From the NCBI GenBank assembly GCA_040752595.1, contig JBFMGX010000015.1, positions 1 through 64,000 of the forward strand: a stretch of 64,000 bases of DNA, written 5' to 3'. The notes beneath the pieces are model-generated. The model was not told the DNA's origin and made no database searches. It was given only the letters and a program-made list of their open reading frames with translations. Position numbers and translations under genes: made by a program. This DNA is from Candidatus Zixiibacteriota bacterium. Lineage in GTDB: Bacteria > Zixibacteria > MSB-5A5 > WJJR01. Below, in pieces: positions 2,098 through 11,726 of this stretch. Position 1 is the stretch's first letter. Each line of letters opens with the position of its first letter.

Positions 2098-3462
2098 ATG
2101 AGTACACACGCGAACCAGTCGGAGCTCAACTCGTCGCTAGATCAGCTCTTCAGAAAAGTCACCGATGAGTTCAAGGAAGAACGCGCAAAAGAGTACGGAG
2201 ACCCAGAGACCAGAACGGCGAGACTTAAGCCGCCCGTTCTGAAGTTCATTCGTACTGCTCGCGAACATCTTGAGCGAGCTGGCGATGCCGACGCAGTCAA
2301 GTACGTTAAGGCTTTCGAATGGTACTGGACCGACCATTCGAAAGTCACCACCGACCAAGAGTCCGATGAGTTCATGCAAGAATGGTTCCGCAGGCGCAAG
2401 GACAACAATAAGGCACCGATTCTCCGCGTCCATGCGCTGTTCGAGAAGCTCAACAAGGACACCGAGGATCCACTCGTCGCGAAGCTCATCGGTGATCACA
2501 TCCAAATGATGCTTTTAGATGCATCGATCTCGAAGGATGGAAAGGGCGATTTCGGATTGATGCTGAAAGCGATGCTTCAACCTGCAGTGAAGCAGTTCTT
2601 TGGAATCTTCGACCGGAAGTTGGGTGACCGCTCCCAGAGAAAGCAACAAGTAGTCGCGCCGACCGCCGCTGTCATGGGCGAGGTAGCGAACAAGCTGGAC
2701 TCGGAGTCCCAGCCGCTCGCCGCGGCCTATCTGAGGGCCTTCGAAAACATGCTTGACGGAGCCCCTGACGATCCAGAGGACGCTCAGGCACACTCGGACG
2801 AAGTTGGTTCTCTTGTCCGAGATTGGGAGAAGGTGCGGAATCAGACTCCGGCCAGCGCAATTGATTCCGCACGAGTGGCCCTGGCACGGCACATGGAAAC
2901 TGTGGAAAAGGACGAAGTGCGAAACATGCTCGTACTGCAACTTCATCTAATGAAGTGTGACGCGGATGAAGCAGGAAAGGCTCGGCCCGATGTAACCCCC
3001 GAAGAGGAATCTTCACCTACAGTGCTTGGGATGCTTGTCAAGGTGGTCGGCACTGCCGCGTTCAAAACATACGACCGCGTCCGCTTCATCTTGGACAGGG
3101 AGATTCCGGGAGGAGCGGATACCGTTGACATCCCGACGTTTGTCAAGCTCTGCACGCTCAATGGAACACAGTTTTACAATTCGGTCGCCGATCTCAAACG
3201 CGAACATTACAAAATGGCGGCTACCGCGGCGGACACAAAACCACCGCAAGAGAAGGAAGATCCCATCCGCAAGATCGAACGCGAAGAGGCGGTGTGGACG
3301 GCACTTCACAAGCGGGCGGCACGATTCGCCAGACACAGGACGGAGCTCTTGGCGGGGCTCAAGAGGGAGTTGCGAGAAGCGGGATTCTCGGAAGAGGAAA
3401 TCCAAGACATGGTGGCCGACTTCGAACGGACCTTTGATGACCTAACAGGTGGAGACAAGTAG
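2098..3462 (+). CDS. Unknown protein with a tandemly duplicated helical domain, paired with a HerA/TraD-like ATPase
   Basis: 454 residues, start ATG 2098 with GGAGGG 7 bases upstream. No known family is apparent, but the protein contains an internal duplication visible by eye. Residues ~46-175 and ~187-332 align: DAVKYVKAFEWY with PLAAAYLRAFEN, then ESDEFMQEW with HSDEVGSLV, DPLVAKLIGDHIQMMLLDA with KDEVRNMLVLQLHLMKCDA, and a final LMLKAML...FFGIFDR with LGMLVKVV...FKTYDRV. The region from ~375 is highly charged and probably coiled coil. It has no signal peptide or membrane segment. The stop codon is followed after one base by the ATG of the ATPase gene, so the two are translationally linked and probably act together. 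Confidence 0.82.
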   Translation: MSTHANQSELNSSLDQLFRKVTDEFKEERAKEYGDPETRTARLKPPVLKFIRTAREHLERAGDADAVKYVKAFEWYWTDHSKVTTDQESDEFMQEWFRRRKDNNKAPILRVHALFEKLNKDTEDPLVAKLIGDHIQMMLLDASISKDGKGDFGLMLKAMLQPAVKQFFGIFDRKLGDRSQRKQQVVAPTAAVMGEVANKLDSESQPLAAAYLRAFENMLDGAPDDPEDAQAHSDEVGSLVRDWEKVRNQTPASAIDSARVALARHMETVEKDEVRNMLVLQLHLMKCDADEAGKARPDVTPEEESSPTVLGMLVKVVGTAAFKTYDRVRFILDREIPGGADTVDIPTFVKLCTLNGTQFYNSVADLKREHYKMAATAADTKPPQEKEDPIRKIEREEAVWTALHKRAARFARHRTELLAGLKRELREAGFSEEEIQDMVADFERTFDDLTGGDK

Positions 3463-3463
3463 C

Positions 3464-5215
3464 ATGGTACAAACAAAGCGCTTCAAACTTGGTAAGCACG
3501 CTCTCAAAGGGAGCGCTTTCACAGTCAAGGGCGACGAGCTTCAGACCCATGCCATGATCGTCGGTGGCACGGGTCGAGGGAAAAGTAAGTTTCTGGAATT
3601 GGCTGCGAGAAACTTCATCGAGTCAGAAACTCCCATCGTCGTCCTCGACCCCCACGGGGACACCGTCAAGAACATCTTACAGCACGCTACCGAACGACAC
3701 TTGGACAACCGAGTGGTGTGCATCGACCCCAACCAAGCCGTGGATGAGGCGGTCTATCCGCTCAACTTTTTACAGCGTACATCGGATGACATAGCGACGC
3801 ATGCCAGTCACATTATGCGGGCCATCGCCAAGGTCTTCGGTGAAGAGGACTCGCAGTCGAAGCCACGGCTTGAACGCCGCGAGCGTGCGACGCTTATGGC
3901 ACTCATTGAAGCGTCTTACTCGATGGCCGAGATGTTGCACTTCCTGTCGATCAGCGACCCACGATTCCGGCAACACGTGCTCAAGCGTGTAACGGACCCG
4001 TACGTGTTGTCCGAGTGGTCGGAGTACGACTCCATATCACGACGGGCCGAACGCGAACAGCTGCTGGAATCCTGTCTTAACCGTGCGGCGAAAATCATTC
4101 TCAACGAGCCGGTGAGACGCTGCTTGGGAGCACCATCCTGCAATCTCGACTGGGAAGATGTCGTTCGAAACAAGAAAATCGTTCTCGTGAATCTGCAACC
4201 GACGAAGGTGAGCCGGGAATGCATGCAACTCATGGGAATTCTGATTCTCGACCACCTGGTTCGGTTCGGAACGCGTTCAACCCGTCCTCTTAGTTCGCCC
4301 CTCTATGTATTGTGCGACGAACTGGATGAGCTCGCGAGTCCTGATCTGTCGTACGCACTGCAAGCACTTCGTAAGAGGCGCATTTTCGTCTGGGGGTGCA
4401 TTCAATATCTTGAGCAGCTTCGCACCCACGACACAACCTCGAAACTGTACCATTCCTTCATGGCGAATGCGGATCTCAAAGTCGTGTTTCACACGACATA
4501 TGAGGATGCCCAACTTCTCGTTCATGAATTGTTCGCCGGAGAGTTTCGCGGCGACATCGTGAAAGACGAGATCAAGAGAACGACTCCGATTCCCGTGGAA
4601 TCGGTCAGAAAGGTGTTCGGAACGACCGAGCATGAGAGTGCGACGCAGTCATCGGCGGACACAACAGGTTCTGCAGTATCGAGTAACACGGTTGACGTTG
4701 ACATGCGCTCTCACGCGCATGGTACGAATGAAATCCTCAGTCCTGACGGAACCATCGTTAGCCGGGGAGGCAGCGATATCGAGACGCGTGGAACGTCTAC
4801 TGCGCGAGGATCATCGGATGTGAGTAGCTCACAACACATGGAAGGGAGCGCACATACCGTGTCGCGCGGAAGTAGCGTTTCTGAAGTTCCCTTTTATGAG
4901 TACCTCTTGCGTCAGGAATTGACCAGCCGCACGTTCTATACGATCGAGGAGTTGACCGAGCAATTCATCGCGTTTCTCCAGTGCCAGCCGGAACGTCACG
5001 TCCAGATTAAGCTGAAGGATCGCAAGGGCGCACCGGTCGTGTTGAGCTTCGTGCACCCAACCCGAATACGGGAGAAACACGTTCTGAAACTCATTCATCG
5101 CAGTAACGAAAGAGTTGCGCTCCCGCCGCCTAAGGTGGATGCAATTCTGCACGAACGGTTGAAACTACCCGAGGCTGTCGAAGCAATCGAGGATGAAACA
5201 CCGCGCTGGGAATAG
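3464..5215 (+). CDS. Soluble HerA/FtsK-superfamily ATPase, TraD/VirD4-like (coupling protein type)
   Basis: 583 residues from ATG 3464. The Walker A is GGTGRGKS (34-41), followed by IVVLDPHGD (~58-66), a motif typical of VirD4/TraD and DUF87-type DNA pumps; the Walker B is LYVLCDEL (~280-287), and a later RKRRIFVWGC resembles the sensor strand. The usual N-terminal membrane helices of conjugative coupling proteins are absent, so this is a cytosolic form. Residues ~390-470 are a Ser/Thr/Gly-rich low-complexity linker before a C-terminal domain of ~115 residues. Known relatives move DNA using ATP. Its obligate-looking partner is the duplicated-domain gene just upstream. No relaxase or mating-pair genes are seen nearby, so conjugation is only one possibility. 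Confidence 0.85.
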   Translation: MVQTKRFKLGKHALKGSAFTVKGDELQTHAMIVGGTGRGKSKFLELAARNFIESETPIVVLDPHGDTVKNILQHATERHLDNRVVCIDPNQAVDEAVYPLNFLQRTSDDIATHASHIMRAIAKVFGEEDSQSKPRLERRERATLMALIEASYSMAEMLHFLSISDPRFRQHVLKRVTDPYVLSEWSEYDSISRRAEREQLLESCLNRAAKIILNEPVRRCLGAPSCNLDWEDVVRNKKIVLVNLQPTKVSRECMQLMGILILDHLVRFGTRSTRPLSSPLYVLCDELDELASPDLSYALQALRKRRIFVWGCIQYLEQLRTHDTTSKLYHSFMANADLKVVFHTTYEDAQLLVHELFAGEFRGDIVKDEIKRTTPIPVESVRKVFGTTEHESATQSSADTTGSAVSSNTVDVDMRSHAHGTNEILSPDGTIVSRGGSDIETRGTSTARGSSDVSSSQHMEGSAHTVSRGSSVSEVPFYEYLLRQELTSRTFYTIEELTEQFIAFLQCQPERHVQIKLKDRKGAPVVLSFVHPTRIREKHVLKLIHRSNERVALPPPKVDAILHERLKLPEAVEAIEDETPRWE

Positions 5216-5250
5216 CAGCGCTGGTGGTGTGCATAAAACTGAATAAGTAC

Positions 5251-5533
5251 GCCGTCTTGCCTCACCGTTGGCAGGGCGTTATAGAGTCTCAACACCCGTC
5301 CAAGGTAGTACAAGTCTCCACCTTGACGGGCTGCGCTCTTTTCGGCTGGTGGACAGCTTGCACCTGACCACAGCCTTCACCGGCTTGGCCTCGACAATCT
5401 CCGTTTGAAAGAGCATCCTCTTTCGCTCTCCGACTATCTCAGCTACTCCAGCCCTCTATGTTGGGTTGCCACGGGCGGAGAGGCAATCCAGTGAACGCCT
5501 CACCAGATTCATCCTTAAGCGCTGGAGAAAGGA
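5251..5533 (+). ncRNA. Structured 5' leader, copy A (unclassified RNA element)
   Basis: A ~283-base noncoding stretch upstream of the broken ssb that has a clear homologue at 6106-6382. Shared blocks include GTCTTGCC, GGCAGGG, CATAGAG/TATAGAG, CCAAGGTA, GTCTCCACCTTGACGG, CTTGGCCT and GCTACTCCAGCCCTCTATG. A hairpin is plain: CCGTCCAAGGT (5296-5306) pairs with ACCTTGACGG (5320-5329) with one bulged C. CTCCAGC (5446-5452) is exactly complementary to GCTGGAG (5521-5527), which abuts the AGAAAGGA ribosome binding site, so a long-range helix could mask or expose it. It could be a riboswitch-like or protein-binding leader; I do not recognise a class. Confidence 0.65.
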
Positions 5534-5543
5534 ATCGAGCGCT

Positions 5544-5930
5544 ATGAATCTGAACAAGGTCAGTCTCATCGGATAGCTCTCTGTCGATCCGTCCACTTCG
5601 AAGGACGCCTCCGGAAAGAGCGTCGTAACTTTCCCGCTGGTCACGTCGTACTCCTGGGACGACGCCGTCTCTGCGAGACGCGAGCACCTCTACGAAGTGC
5701 ATCCGGTTGTCGCCTACGGCAATCTCGGAACGATCGTCCAGAAGTATTTGAAGAAGGGCGACAGAGTGTACATAGAAGGTCGGCTGCAAAGACAGCAGTG
5801 CCGCAACGAGAAAGGTGAGAAGAGAACGTGCACGGAAGTTCTCGCGACGCAGTTGCTCATGCTGGGCGGCAAATCGAAGACCAGAGCGCCTAAAGACTCA
5901 GCTGAGGTCTCAACCGAGACCGCGAAATAA
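5544..5930 (+). pseudogene. Second SSB gene interrupted by an in-frame amber codon
   Basis: Starting at ATG 5544 the frame reads MNLNKVSLIG, then TAG at 5574-5576, then LSVDPSTSKD and on through an SSB core (EVHPVVAYGNLG, KKGDRVYIEGRL, CTEVLATQLLMLGGK) to the TAA at 5930. The amber codon sits where SSBs usually have Arg, Lys or Asn, so one base change (for example AAG to TAG) would explain it. The frame is otherwise intact for 117 codons, and a good Shine-Dalgarno lies upstream, so decay is recent, or the stop is suppressed, or it is a base error. A GTG at 5697 could give a 77-aa C-terminal fragment. Confidence 0.82.
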
Positions 5931-5940
5931 AAAGGGGGGC

Positions 5941-5972
5941 AGCGGAGAGGGTACATCCCTCTCCGCTTTTTT
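5941..5972 (+). terminator. Rho-independent terminator after the second ssb
   Basis: AGCGGAGAGGG (5941-5951) pairs perfectly with CCCTCTCCGCT (5957-5967) over a 5-base loop and is followed by a T run to 5972. It starts 10 bases after the ssb stop and separates this unit from the second structured leader. Confidence 0.92.
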
Positions 5973-6105
5973 CGTGCTCGTCAGAAAGTATTGAGCACGA
6001 TGTTCTAAGCGGTTACACCGATGCTGGCGTTCGCGCATCGGTGTGTTGTTTCATTCCCCACCCTGATTTTCAGCTCGCAAAGACTCCGGGACACCAAGCC
6101 GGGAC

Positions 6106-6382
6106 GCTGTCTTGCCGTAGGGCTTGGCAGGGTGTCATAGAGACTCAGTATCCGCCCAAGGTAAGAACGCTTCGCGTCTCCACCTTGACGGACAGCACCG
6201 ACCTTGGCTGATGGATATCCCTTGCTGAGATACCCACAGCAGGACGCCTTGGCCTGCAAAGACTCCGCTCTCCGAGCGAAATCTTCTTCGGCTACTCCAG
6301 CCCTCTATGCCATGGGAGGAGGGCAGGAACGGCAAACCAGCGTCAGCCATTCCGCTCTAATCATTCTCCGCTGGAGAAAGGA
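6106..6382 (+). ncRNA. Structured 5' leader, copy B (homologous to 5251-5533)
   Basis: This is the second copy of the leader described at 5251. The main hairpin is kept: CCGCCCAAGGT (6152-6162) with ACCTTGACGG (6182-6191), and here its loop carries an added mini-hairpin (ACGC-TTC-GCGT) that copy A lacks, as expected for a variable apical loop. The CTCCAGC block (6295-6301) again matches GCTGGAG (6370-6376) next to the AGAAAGGA ribosome binding site. The downstream gene is a 71-aa protein unrelated to SSB, so the leader is a portable unit rather than an autoregulatory site of one gene. Confidence 0.65.
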
Positions 6383-6392
6383 CCACACGTCC

Positions 6393-6608
6393 ATGGCATA
6401 CATAGACGGTGTTTACAAGCGCCTCGACGAGATCACGGGTGATCCTCGTGAGCCGATGAGCGACGTTCGCGACCGGCTCAAGGCGTTCATCGCCGAAGAG
6501 ATTCGGAAGTCGTTCTGGAACGGGGTCAAGTCCGGTTCGGGGCGGCGATCACGCTCTCCGAAAGACCAGCCAGTCTCGTCCGAGGAGGTGACGGTGTCCA
6601 AACAGTAG
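6393..6608 (+). CDS. Small protein of unknown function (71 aa)
   Basis: ATG 6393 follows an AGAAAGGA ribosome binding site inside the structured leader. The product starts MAYIDGVYKRLDEIT, has a helical middle (DVRDRLKAFIAEEIRKS) and a basic Ser/Arg/Lys-rich tail. I do not recognise it. Its leader is shared with the broken ssb, which suggests co-regulation with DNA-metabolism functions of the element. Confidence 0.65.
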   Translation: MAYIDGVYKRLDEITGDPREPMSDVRDRLKAFIAEEIRKSFWNGVKSGSGRRSRSPKDQPVSSEEVTVSKQ

Positions 6609-6677
6609 GGCACTGGCCGGCGCAGGCGGCGGCCAATCCGCCTGCACTCCAATCTAATCATTCACACGGTATCACGT

Positions 6678-6797
6678 ATGCGAAATCAGTACAACTCACC
6701 GAGCCTCTGGAGCTATATCCTCAAGGGGTTCATGGAGTTCGGCGTCGGAGTAGCAATCGTGCTCGGACTGCTACTCCTTCTCAAGGGCGGGCTCTAA
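6678..6797 (+). CDS. 39-aa single-span membrane micro-protein
   Basis: ATG 6678 to TAA 6797. The product has a short polar N-terminus (MRNQYNSPSLW), then a single hydrophobic helix rich in Gly, Val and Leu (about residues 16-36) ending in LLKGG. There is no strong Shine-Dalgarno (ACGGTATCACGT precedes it). Its stop codon lies inside the loop of the terminator at 6785-6809, which fits a deliberately compact last gene of the unit. The function is unknown. Confidence 0.5.
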   Translation: MRNQYNSPSLWSYILKGFMEFGVGVAIVLGLLLLLKGGL

Positions 6798-6809
6798 TCC
6801 CGCCCTTTT
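6785..6809 (+). terminator. Terminator overlapping the stop of the micro-protein gene
   Basis: GGGCGGG (6785-6791) pairs with CCCGCCC (6799-6805), followed by TTTT and a second T-rich run. The TAA at 6795-6797 is in the loop. Confidence 0.85.
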
Positions 6810-6957
6810 GTTCTTTTTTGCTCGCGGAAAATCTGCCCACCCAATCTCTTGCCGTGTAAGGCATTATCCCGTATTCTGTCTAGAGCGGCGGCATCCCTTG
6901 CGGTCAAGCCGTGTTGTGAACGCTTGGCCGGAGGGTTCCCGAAGGAGTGACAAATCT

Positions 6958-10408: not shown

Positions 10409-10440
10409 GCCCTGACAGTGCTCTTTATGAGCGTCAGGGC
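10409..10440 (+). promoter_or_regulatory. Hairpin in the integrase leader
   Basis: GCCCTGAC (10409-10416) pairs with GTCAGGGC (10433-10440), and inside it GCTC/GAGC extends the stem around a TTTAT loop. It lies between the xis-like gene and the integrase ribosome binding site and could attenuate integrase expression. No T run follows, so it is not a simple terminator. Confidence 0.5.
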
Positions 10441-10492
10441 ATTTGCGTCTACTCTCAAGCAAGCCACACCGAAGGGAGGTGATGACGACACA

Positions 10493-11649
10493 GTGGCAAA
10501 AGGAAGCGTCATTAAGCGCTCTGGAAGCTGGTACGCGGTCTATCGGGATGGCAGCAGACAGAAGTGGGAGAAGGTCGGAACGTCGAAGCGAACAGCCGAG
10601 AAGGTCCTGGCGGAACGTCTGGATCAACTCAATTCTGGTGGCTACCAGGAACTGACTCAGATTCGCTTCCGCGAATTCGCCGAGAAGTGGCTCAAGGACT
10701 ACGCCGAAGTCAACACCAAGCCGTCGACGTATCACTCGTACGTGGGCGTCATTCAGCTGCATTTGAATCCGTATCTTGGCGACCGGTGGCTCCACAAGAT
10801 TACCGCCGGACACATTCAGGAGATTGTCTCCACGAAGATCTCCGATCACGGTCTCTCGCCGAAGTCCGTTGGCAACGTCCTTGTTGTTCTCAAACGGATG
10901 TTCCAGCACGCCGTTCTCTGGGGCTACCTCAGACGCAACCCGGCCGCGCTCGTGCAGAAGCCGCGCGTTGAGCGTCAGGAGATGGACATCCTCAACCCCG
11001 AGGAAGTCCGGATCTTCCTGCAGCACGTGCGAGCCAAGCACTACGCCTTGTTCCTGACGGCAGTGCTCACGGGCATGCGCCGGGGAGAGCTTCTCGCCCT
11101 CCAATGGGGAGACATTGACTGGCGCTCGTCGCAGATCATCGTTCGACGGTCCCTGTACAAGGGACAGTTCACATCACCGAAGACGAAGTATTCTTGCAGA
11201 CGCATCGTCATGTCCAAGACCCTACAGGAAGCACTCCAGCAACACCGTCTGATTTCGATTCGCTCCGAGGACGACTTGATCTTCTGCAACGAGAACGGCA
11301 AACCTCTCGATCCCGACGACCTCGTCAAGCGGGAGTTCTTTCCCGCACTCGACAGAGCTGGCTTACACCGGATACGCTTCCATGATCTGAGGCATACCTA
11401 CGCTTCACTCCTGATCGCGCAGGGCGAAAACATCAAGTTCATCCAGCACCAACTCGGCCACGCGTCAGCGACAACGACGCTCGACCGGTACGGACACCTC
11501 ATGTCCGATCGGAACGTCGAAGCGGCAGAACGCCTCGATCAAACGGTTTTCGGAGGTTTTGTTAGAAAACTGTTAGAAAATCCGGAATCTGAAGGCATTC
11601 CCCAAAAACACGAACTCCCCGAAGTGTTTCCACTTCAGGGAGTTAAGCT

Positions 11650-11671
<22 letters not shown>
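10493..11671 (+). CDS. int: Tyrosine recombinase / integrase of the mobile element
   Basis: 392 residues from GTG 10493, selected because AAGGGAGGTGA (10472-10482) precedes it; the upstream in-frame sequence has no better start. The N-terminus is an AP2-like arm-binding domain (YAVYRDGSRQKWEKVGTSK), then the SAM-like core-binding domain, then the catalytic domain with R (TGMRRGELLAL), K (SPKTKYS), HxxR (HDLRHTYAS), H (QLGHAS) and the nucleophile Y (LDRYGHL). All catalytic residues are present. The last codons (GVKLGSGGRI) and stop lie inside the tRNA-fMet gene on the other strand, so integration regenerates the end of the integrase. Confidence 0.96.
11604..11644 (-). terminator. Terminator of the tRNA-fMet transcript, inside the integrase coding end
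   Basis: AACTCCC (11613-11619) and CGAAGTG pair with CACTTC and GGGAGTT (11638-11644) around a TTTC loop. On the minus strand the hairpin is followed within 4 bases by T5 (11608-11604). It is 5 bases from the tRNA 3' end, so it ends the tRNA transcript while also encoding integrase residues. Confidence 0.72.

Positions 11672-11726
<55 letters not shown>

Follow-up and report, generated by a model that had tools for sequence, protein, structure and literature searches.

The locus raises the question of what a structured region of ~280 nt, present twice on one mobile element of an uncultured phylum, does in front of two different genes. The stretch analysed (the window, 64,000 nt) forms the start of contig C15 in a 2.94-Mb genome, and both copies of the region, A and B, lie in its first 7 kb.

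Two leader copies on an integrative element

The genes around A and B suggest the right-hand portion of an integrative element. They include a tyrosine integrase (10430-11671), encoded against a tRNA (11653-11726), an excisionase-like HTH protein and an ImmA/IrrE-type protease. A VirD4/HerA-like ATPase is found at 3461-5215, and a Replic_Relax protein is represented by its end (1-384). The left part of the element was sought on the other contigs and was not found.

As the preliminary description had it, the two copies have ordered blocks in common and keep a main hairpin (P2) with a variable apical loop, that of B being six bases longer than that of A. They start at ~5246 and ~6101 and run to the ATGs of their genes (Table 1). 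The block CTACTCCAGCCCTCTATG has two exact occurrences in the window (5443 and 6292), with 0.01 expected. Likewise, CGCTGGAGAAAGGA occurs twice exactly (5520 and 6369) and a third time with one mismatch at 619, within a diverged third copy that consists of the 3' module. The genes behind A and B were also described correctly, as a broken ssb and a 71-aa unknown protein. The ssb after A is interrupted by a single stop codon, and an intact second ssb starts at 641 on the same element. Domain searches with the 71-aa protein and with the 39-aa hydrophobic protein encoded behind it returned no match. Together, the two ORFs possibly make up a two-gene unit with a membrane peptide.

Table 1. Features of the leader copies, their genes and the ends of unit B (the leader-gene-terminator unit of copy B) in the window; all lie on the + strand.
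Feature	Position	Details
Diverged third copy, 3' module only, before intact ssb at 641	578-643	CAGCG/CGCTG and Shine-Dalgarno; model R1 20.9 bits, E 6.6e-5 in 12 kb
Leader copy A, including ATG of broken ssb	5246-5546	model R1 83.3 bits, model R2 69.4 bits
A: P0 5' strand	5257-5263	TTGCCTC; partner GAGGCAA 5480-5486
A: P1 5' strand	5280-5286	TATAGAG; partner CTCTATG 5454-5460
A: P2 main hairpin	5296-5329	CCGTCCAAGGT 5296-5306 / ACCTTGACGG 5320-5329
A: P3 hairpin	5344-5375	GGCTGGTGGACAG/CTGACCACAGCC
A: P1 3' strand	5454-5460	CTCTATG
A: P5 stem	5477-5504	GGAGAGGC/GCCTCACC; GGC within also used by P0
A: pseudoknot helix PK	5488-5525	CCAGTG 5488-5493 / CGCTGG 5520-5525
A: Shine-Dalgarno	5527-5532	GAAAGG
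Broken ssb after copy A	5544-5930	single in-frame TAG at codon 11, remaining frame intact
Intrinsic terminator after ssb	5941-5972	AGCGGAGAGGG..CCCTCTCCGCT and T-run; common to other units
Unit B: left direct repeat	6057-6063	CCCACCC
Unit B: left inverted repeat	6065-6081	GATTTTCAGCTCGCAAA
Leader copy B, including ATG of 71-aa ORF	6101-6395	R1 95 bits, R2 72.4 bits
B: P0 5' strand	6112-6118	TTGCCGT; partner ACGGCAA 6329-6335
B: P1 5' strand	6136-6142	CATAGAG; partner CTCTATG 6303-6309
B: P2 main hairpin	6152-6191	CCGCCCAAGGT 6152-6162 / ACCTTGACGG 6182-6191
B: P3 hairpin	6206-6240	
B: P5 stem	6326-6353	GGAACGGC/GCCATTCC
B: pseudoknot helix PK	6337-6374	CCAGCG/CGCTGG
B: Shine-Dalgarno	6376-6381	GAAAGG
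71-aa ORF after copy B	6393-6608	homologues L017 (70%), L032 (31%); SFWNGVK motif; predicted two-helix protein
39-aa hydrophobic ORF	6678-6797	kept beside 71-aa ORF in G004 (L017)
Intrinsic terminator of unit B	6783-6812	
Unit B: right inverted repeat	6817-6833	TTTGCTCGCGGAAAATC
Unit B: right direct repeat	6836-6842	CCCACCC

Spread of the leader and the genes behind it

A BLAST search of related genomes, combined with a covariance model of the 3' part, located leader copies in nine of the 132 genomes of the phylum and in none of ~250 other genomes scanned. Remnants in G094 and G115 were picked up in addition with a sequence model built on the 5' part. Given these homologues in further genomes of the phylum, the leader is more than a chance likeness between A and B. 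Eleven copies are full: A, B, eight more from Zixibacteria and one (L032) on a 3.5-kb contig labelled Thorarchaeota, which may be misbinned. The organisms are mostly recorded as Candidatus Zixiibacteriota, Zixibacteria or GN15, with one record labelled Ignavibacterium.

The downstream genes had been called unrelated, and this holds for A and B. Overall, however, ssb is the main partner of the leader, as it follows eight of the 11 full copies (A and L018 to L024, the ssb of L021 being cut short). B and L032 precede members of the 71-aa family, while in G044 the ATG is lost and an unknown gene is found ~200 nt downstream. A look at the genes behind other copies had been recommended; among the nine further full copies, seven thus stand before ssb, one before a 71-aa homologue and one lacks a start codon. 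The partial copy L017 (3' half) also lies ahead of a 71-aa homologue. Two other partial copies, in G131 (3' half, with a degraded ssb) and in G115 (5' half), both adjoin tRNA sequence; by locus, leader remnants next to tRNA sequence were recorded at L045, L119 and L120. These positions are consistent with element integration at tRNA genes. A DUF932 protein (PHROG 1362) is encoded downstream of the leader units in L020 (4586-5665), L022 (5197-6276), L024 and L046.

The leader is absent from 20 other second-tier ssb genes of the phylum, which rules out a general ssb leader, and no homologue was found among plasmid and phage sequences. Pattern matches on IMG/VR phage contigs (L055-L059) were rejected: they contain CTACTCCANCCCTCTATG, a single block in common by chance, in otherwise unlike surroundings. 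This calls for caution in pattern searches that use CTACTCCANCCCTCTATG. The weak matches of L121 and L122 to model R2 are likewise chance-like. No Rfam family matched the leader at gathering score, in agreement with the earlier description, which could not assign it to a known class.

A second conserved intergenic element of ~116 bp was observed in two of these loci, L032 (1216-1331) and L020 (G027 C129, 6684-6797, minus strand), with 84% identity. It contains hairpin-like repeats. In L032 an ArdC antirestriction gene follows it, while in G027 it adjoins a leader unit and that gene is missing. The element may be another early-gene leader.

Covarying helices and two exclusive pairings

The 11 full copies were aligned by hand on anchors, and every register was scanned with no structure presupposed. 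Among 31,001 five-pair registers, P3, P0, PK, P1 and P5 are found among the top scorers. On a MAFFT alignment, the combination of P1, P2, P3, P5 and PK pairs 91.8% of the cells and reaches a covariation score of 0.185, compared to 0.098 for shuffled alignments and at most 0.068 when the structure is slid along. For P0, scoring was confined to the hand alignment, as MAFFT displaces the 5' strand of this helix by a single base in four copies. Taken helix by helix, the observed score is reached by 1 (P3), 7 (P0), 15 (P2), 33 (P5), 53 (PK) and 94 (P1) of 5000 permutations. With the maximum taken over all registers, it is reached in 8 of 300 permutations for PK and in 4 of 60 for the long-range helices, the latter not being significant. 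These figures stem from 11 sequences only, some of which are closely related. Nonetheless, double-sided changes in 13 of the 41 pairs and a covariation score above all 500 shuffles indicate that the conserved fold is real. The three objections that the preliminary description had raised against itself, a lack of covariation in homologues, a match to a known Rfam family and a decayed coding sequence, all fall away: covariation is present in the 11 copies, no Rfam family matched, and all six frames of every copy hold stops.

Read from 5' to 3', the leader starts with the 5' strands of P0 and P1, followed by the hairpins P2 and P3 and a variable stretch. The conserved block CTACTCCAnCyCTCTATG comes next, and its end forms the 3' strand of P1. 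P0 and P1 thereby close the 5' part, with its two hairpins, onto the 3' part. The 5' strand of P5 (GGAGxGGC) doubles as the source of the P0 3' strand, and the loop of P5 holds the 5' strand of PK (CCAGCG). The P5 3' strand, a linker of 13-17 nt and the PK 3' strand (CGCTGG) then lead up to the Shine-Dalgarno sequence GAAAGG, which begins 1 nt after the pseudoknot, with the ATG ~9-11 nt further on. Together, P5 and PK make up a pseudoknot of the H type, whose loops measure 3-4, 2-3 and 13-17 nt. The spacing of pseudoknot, Shine-Dalgarno sequence and ATG is kept wherever a gene follows. In G044, where no ATG is found at that place, one pair of PK is broken.

Compensatory changes can be observed in P1 (CATAGAG/CTCTATG to CACAGAG/CTCTGTG in L024 and G044), in PK (CCAGCG/CGCTGG to CCGGTG/CACCGG in L024) and in P5 (GAGGC/GCCTC to GAGAC/GTCTC), while one pair of P0 occurs as TA, AT and GC. 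A different helix had been proposed as the translational gate, namely CTCCAGC with GCTGGAG beside the ribosome binding site. The two blocks are indeed complementary in A and B, but not a single compensatory change joins them in the 11 copies, and CTCC stays unchanged where GGAG becomes GGTG or GGGG. The helices with compensatory changes are instead PK, P5, P0, P1 and P3. P4b (GCTxCTCC/GGAGxGGC) was rejected as well, since its changes are uncompensated.

P0 and P5 compete for one GGC and therefore cannot coexist, which yields two exclusive states, with compensatory changes present in both helices. In constrained folds (ViennaRNA, whose energies leave out the pseudoknot itself), in most copies the P0+P1 state and the P5 state both lie no more than ~10 kcal/mol from the optimum; for P0+P1, L023 is an exception. 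As for the strand that folds, departures of the G-U versus the A-C kind number 8:2 in P5 and 0:3 in P2, so that the sense strand is not clearly favoured by them. The loop lengths, on the other hand, suggest an H-type pseudoknot of the sense strand.

Proposed function and alternative explanations

The leader is thus real, unclassified and covariation-supported, and it is wider spread and more elaborate than first seen. The explanation preferred here, which we hold at roughly even chances, is that the leader is a cis-acting element of the mRNA and governs how translation is initiated on the early genes (mostly ssb) of integrative elements in Zixibacteria. Translational control is thought most likely because the fold reaches just up to the Shine-Dalgarno sequence with an almost constant spacing, because PK degenerates in the sole copy without a start codon (G044) and because the pseudoknot loops fit the sense strand. 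Directly supported are the conservation, the covarying helices, the exclusivity (on paper) of P0 and P5, the placement next to the Shine-Dalgarno sequence and the association with ssb. We infer from these that the leader acts as RNA, and the assignment of states and signal would then be as follows. The pseudoknot state (P5 with PK) would be expected to crowd the ribosome site and hinder the 30S subunit (off). In the long-range P0 state, only a simple PK hairpin with a loop of ~30 nt would be left, and the hindrance would be relieved (on). The signal could be the level of the element's SSB, as a feedback like that of T4 gene 32, or the unwinding of the leader early after entry; SSB would be the likeliest, as the most economical choice. 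Of the portable, translation-gating RNA that had been proposed at the outset, there remain the unclassified structured leader, its mobile element, its different genes and its end at the ribosome binding site, whereas the original gate helix is lost. That the leader is a portable switch is probably correct.

The closest mechanistic parallel to this translational switch is offered by phage T4 and RB69, where the gene of a single-strand-binding protein, also on a mobile genome, has a pseudoknot upstream of its Shine-Dalgarno sequence (PMC535899). In T4, the pseudoknot ahead of the gp32 ribosome site is recognized by gp32 itself (PMC535899). In the leader, P5 and PK covary in 11 copies, eight of which precede ssb in the same arrangement. 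The T4 operator comprises a pseudoknot of ~28 nt and >40 nt of little structure with UUAAA repeats (PMC535899). The leader differs in its length (~280 nt), in its pseudoknot that abuts the Shine-Dalgarno sequence, in its large 5' domain with an exclusive alternative pairing and in its bacterial-type SSB. Moreover, UUAAA/UAAA repeats across the ribosome site are absent from the 16-19 nt between PK and ATG. Ribosomal protein leaders (e.g. rpsO and the alpha operon) also have a regulatory pseudoknot at the ribosome site, and an alternative fold besides. The leader resembles these in both respects, but no ribosomal protein gene lies downstream and no Rfam match was obtained.

The same sequence is compatible with action as RNA and with action as folded single-stranded transfer DNA. 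In the latter case, the leader would be a promoter like Frpo/ssi: folding of the transferred strand would recruit RNA polymerase, and ssb and other early genes would be made upon entry. Frpo indeed folds as single-stranded DNA, its stems rebuild the -35 and -10 boxes, and it drives early expression (PMC9849209, PMC11541004). It precedes ssb and anti-defence genes (PMC11541004), and the F plasmid bears two such repeats, one of them before ssbF (PMC9849209). The similarity to Frpo1/Frpo2 and ssi is considerable (PMC9849209), as the element studied here also carries two related folded repeats of ~280 nt, one before ssb and one before another early gene, in the orientation of their genes. The VirD4/HerA-like ATPase and Replic_Relax protein on the integrative element, and the ArdC antirestriction gene that adjoins the L032 copy, strongly recall the leading region of conjugative plasmids; by its genes, the context would fit the placement of Frpo/ssi. 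The combination of ssb, ArdC and repeats on one element would suit a single-stranded promoter equally well. However, the folded stems contain no -35/-10 pair. In a consensus scan, the window copies and L020 gave no match and L019 a single weak one, and no sigma-70-like promoter was detected near the window copies; transcription of the whole leader is therefore an assumption. As the promoter consensus of this phylum may differ, the missing boxes are not decisive against a Frpo-like promoter. Other observations against it are that the compensatory P1 change in L024 and G044 destroys the only -10-like hexamer (TATCAT to TATCAC), that the conserved fold extends to the ribosome binding site and stops there, and that no similar plasmid sequence was found. 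A promoter of this kind is consequently considered rather unlikely, though it is the main contender to translational control. By context, the nearest RNA motif is STAXI (RF01728), a pseudoknot found near ssb, antirestriction and integrase genes in tandem (x2 or x3), for which the authors left RNA or single-stranded DNA open but favoured RNA (PMC2864571). The leader likewise occurs near ssb, ArdC (L032) and an integrase, but with one pseudoknot and no tandem repeat. STAXI identity was set aside on the lack of a covariance model match in the window or 129 genomes, a search in which the control genomes were equally silent. The two exclusive folds and the highly conserved, apparently unpaired blocks (CTACTCCAGCC) could also form the pocket of a small-molecule riboswitch or the target site of an element-encoded antisense RNA, instead of a switch driven by SSB or the ribosome. 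This is judged very improbable: the cargo genes encode DNA-handling proteins and not metabolic ones, and no candidate ligand or antisense gene was found.

A further explanation concerns DNA mobility: the structured region would be the 5' portion of a small module flanked by recombination sites, and a recombinase or relaxase would need the fold of this region. Units of leader, gene and terminator are indeed enclosed by direct repeats CCCACCC(A/T) in B, G031, both G027 copies (C129 and C9) and G014, and less exactly in L032; by locus, such units were recorded at 6057-6842 of the window and in L019, L020, L022, L024 and L032. Just inside the direct repeats, left and right inverted repeats match within a unit and differ between units. 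This combination of a direct repeat core and inverted arms at both ends is clear in all but L032. Among 120 permutations of left and right ends, the correct pairing ranks first. At least 98% of shuffles are beaten by five of the six units, L032 being the one that fails. Since the right arm lies beyond the T-run of the terminator, the inverted repeats are a DNA feature. In the two G027 copies, unrelated sequence starts directly outside CCCACCCA, with similar insides. From their sequence, the unit ends look like attL/attR of site-specifically integrated modules. The pdif modules of Acinetobacter plasmids are alike in placing small genes between short site-specific recombination sites; those are Xer sites, whereas here a constant CCCACCC is combined with unit-specific arms and no recombinase is tied to them. 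A role of the fold itself in mobility is nevertheless improbable, as the module ends fall outside the leader while P5 and PK track the Shine-Dalgarno sequence and ATG. Furthermore, copy A has no CCCACCC or inverted-repeat ends, the units encode no recombinase, and no empty site was found among the flanks of the loci compared. A search for further modules by their 3' end returned only those already known.

Returning to translational control, the modules and leaders might together represent an undescribed system of Zixibacteria, a suggestion made tentatively here. It would consist of CCCACCC-bounded modules of one or two genes, each early gene having its own two-state leader and terminator, and the state of the incoming element, single-stranded or bound by SSB, would switch expression. 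In any case, mobile elements of an uncultured phylum carry an unclassified structured leader that is linked to ssb. How elements time the synthesis of single-strand-binding and early-entry proteins has so far been answered mainly by Frpo (enterobacterial plasmids) and gene 32 (T4). The leader offers a concrete test of this timing, as the exclusive pairing of P0 and P5 is a predicted switch that can be probed by point mutants.
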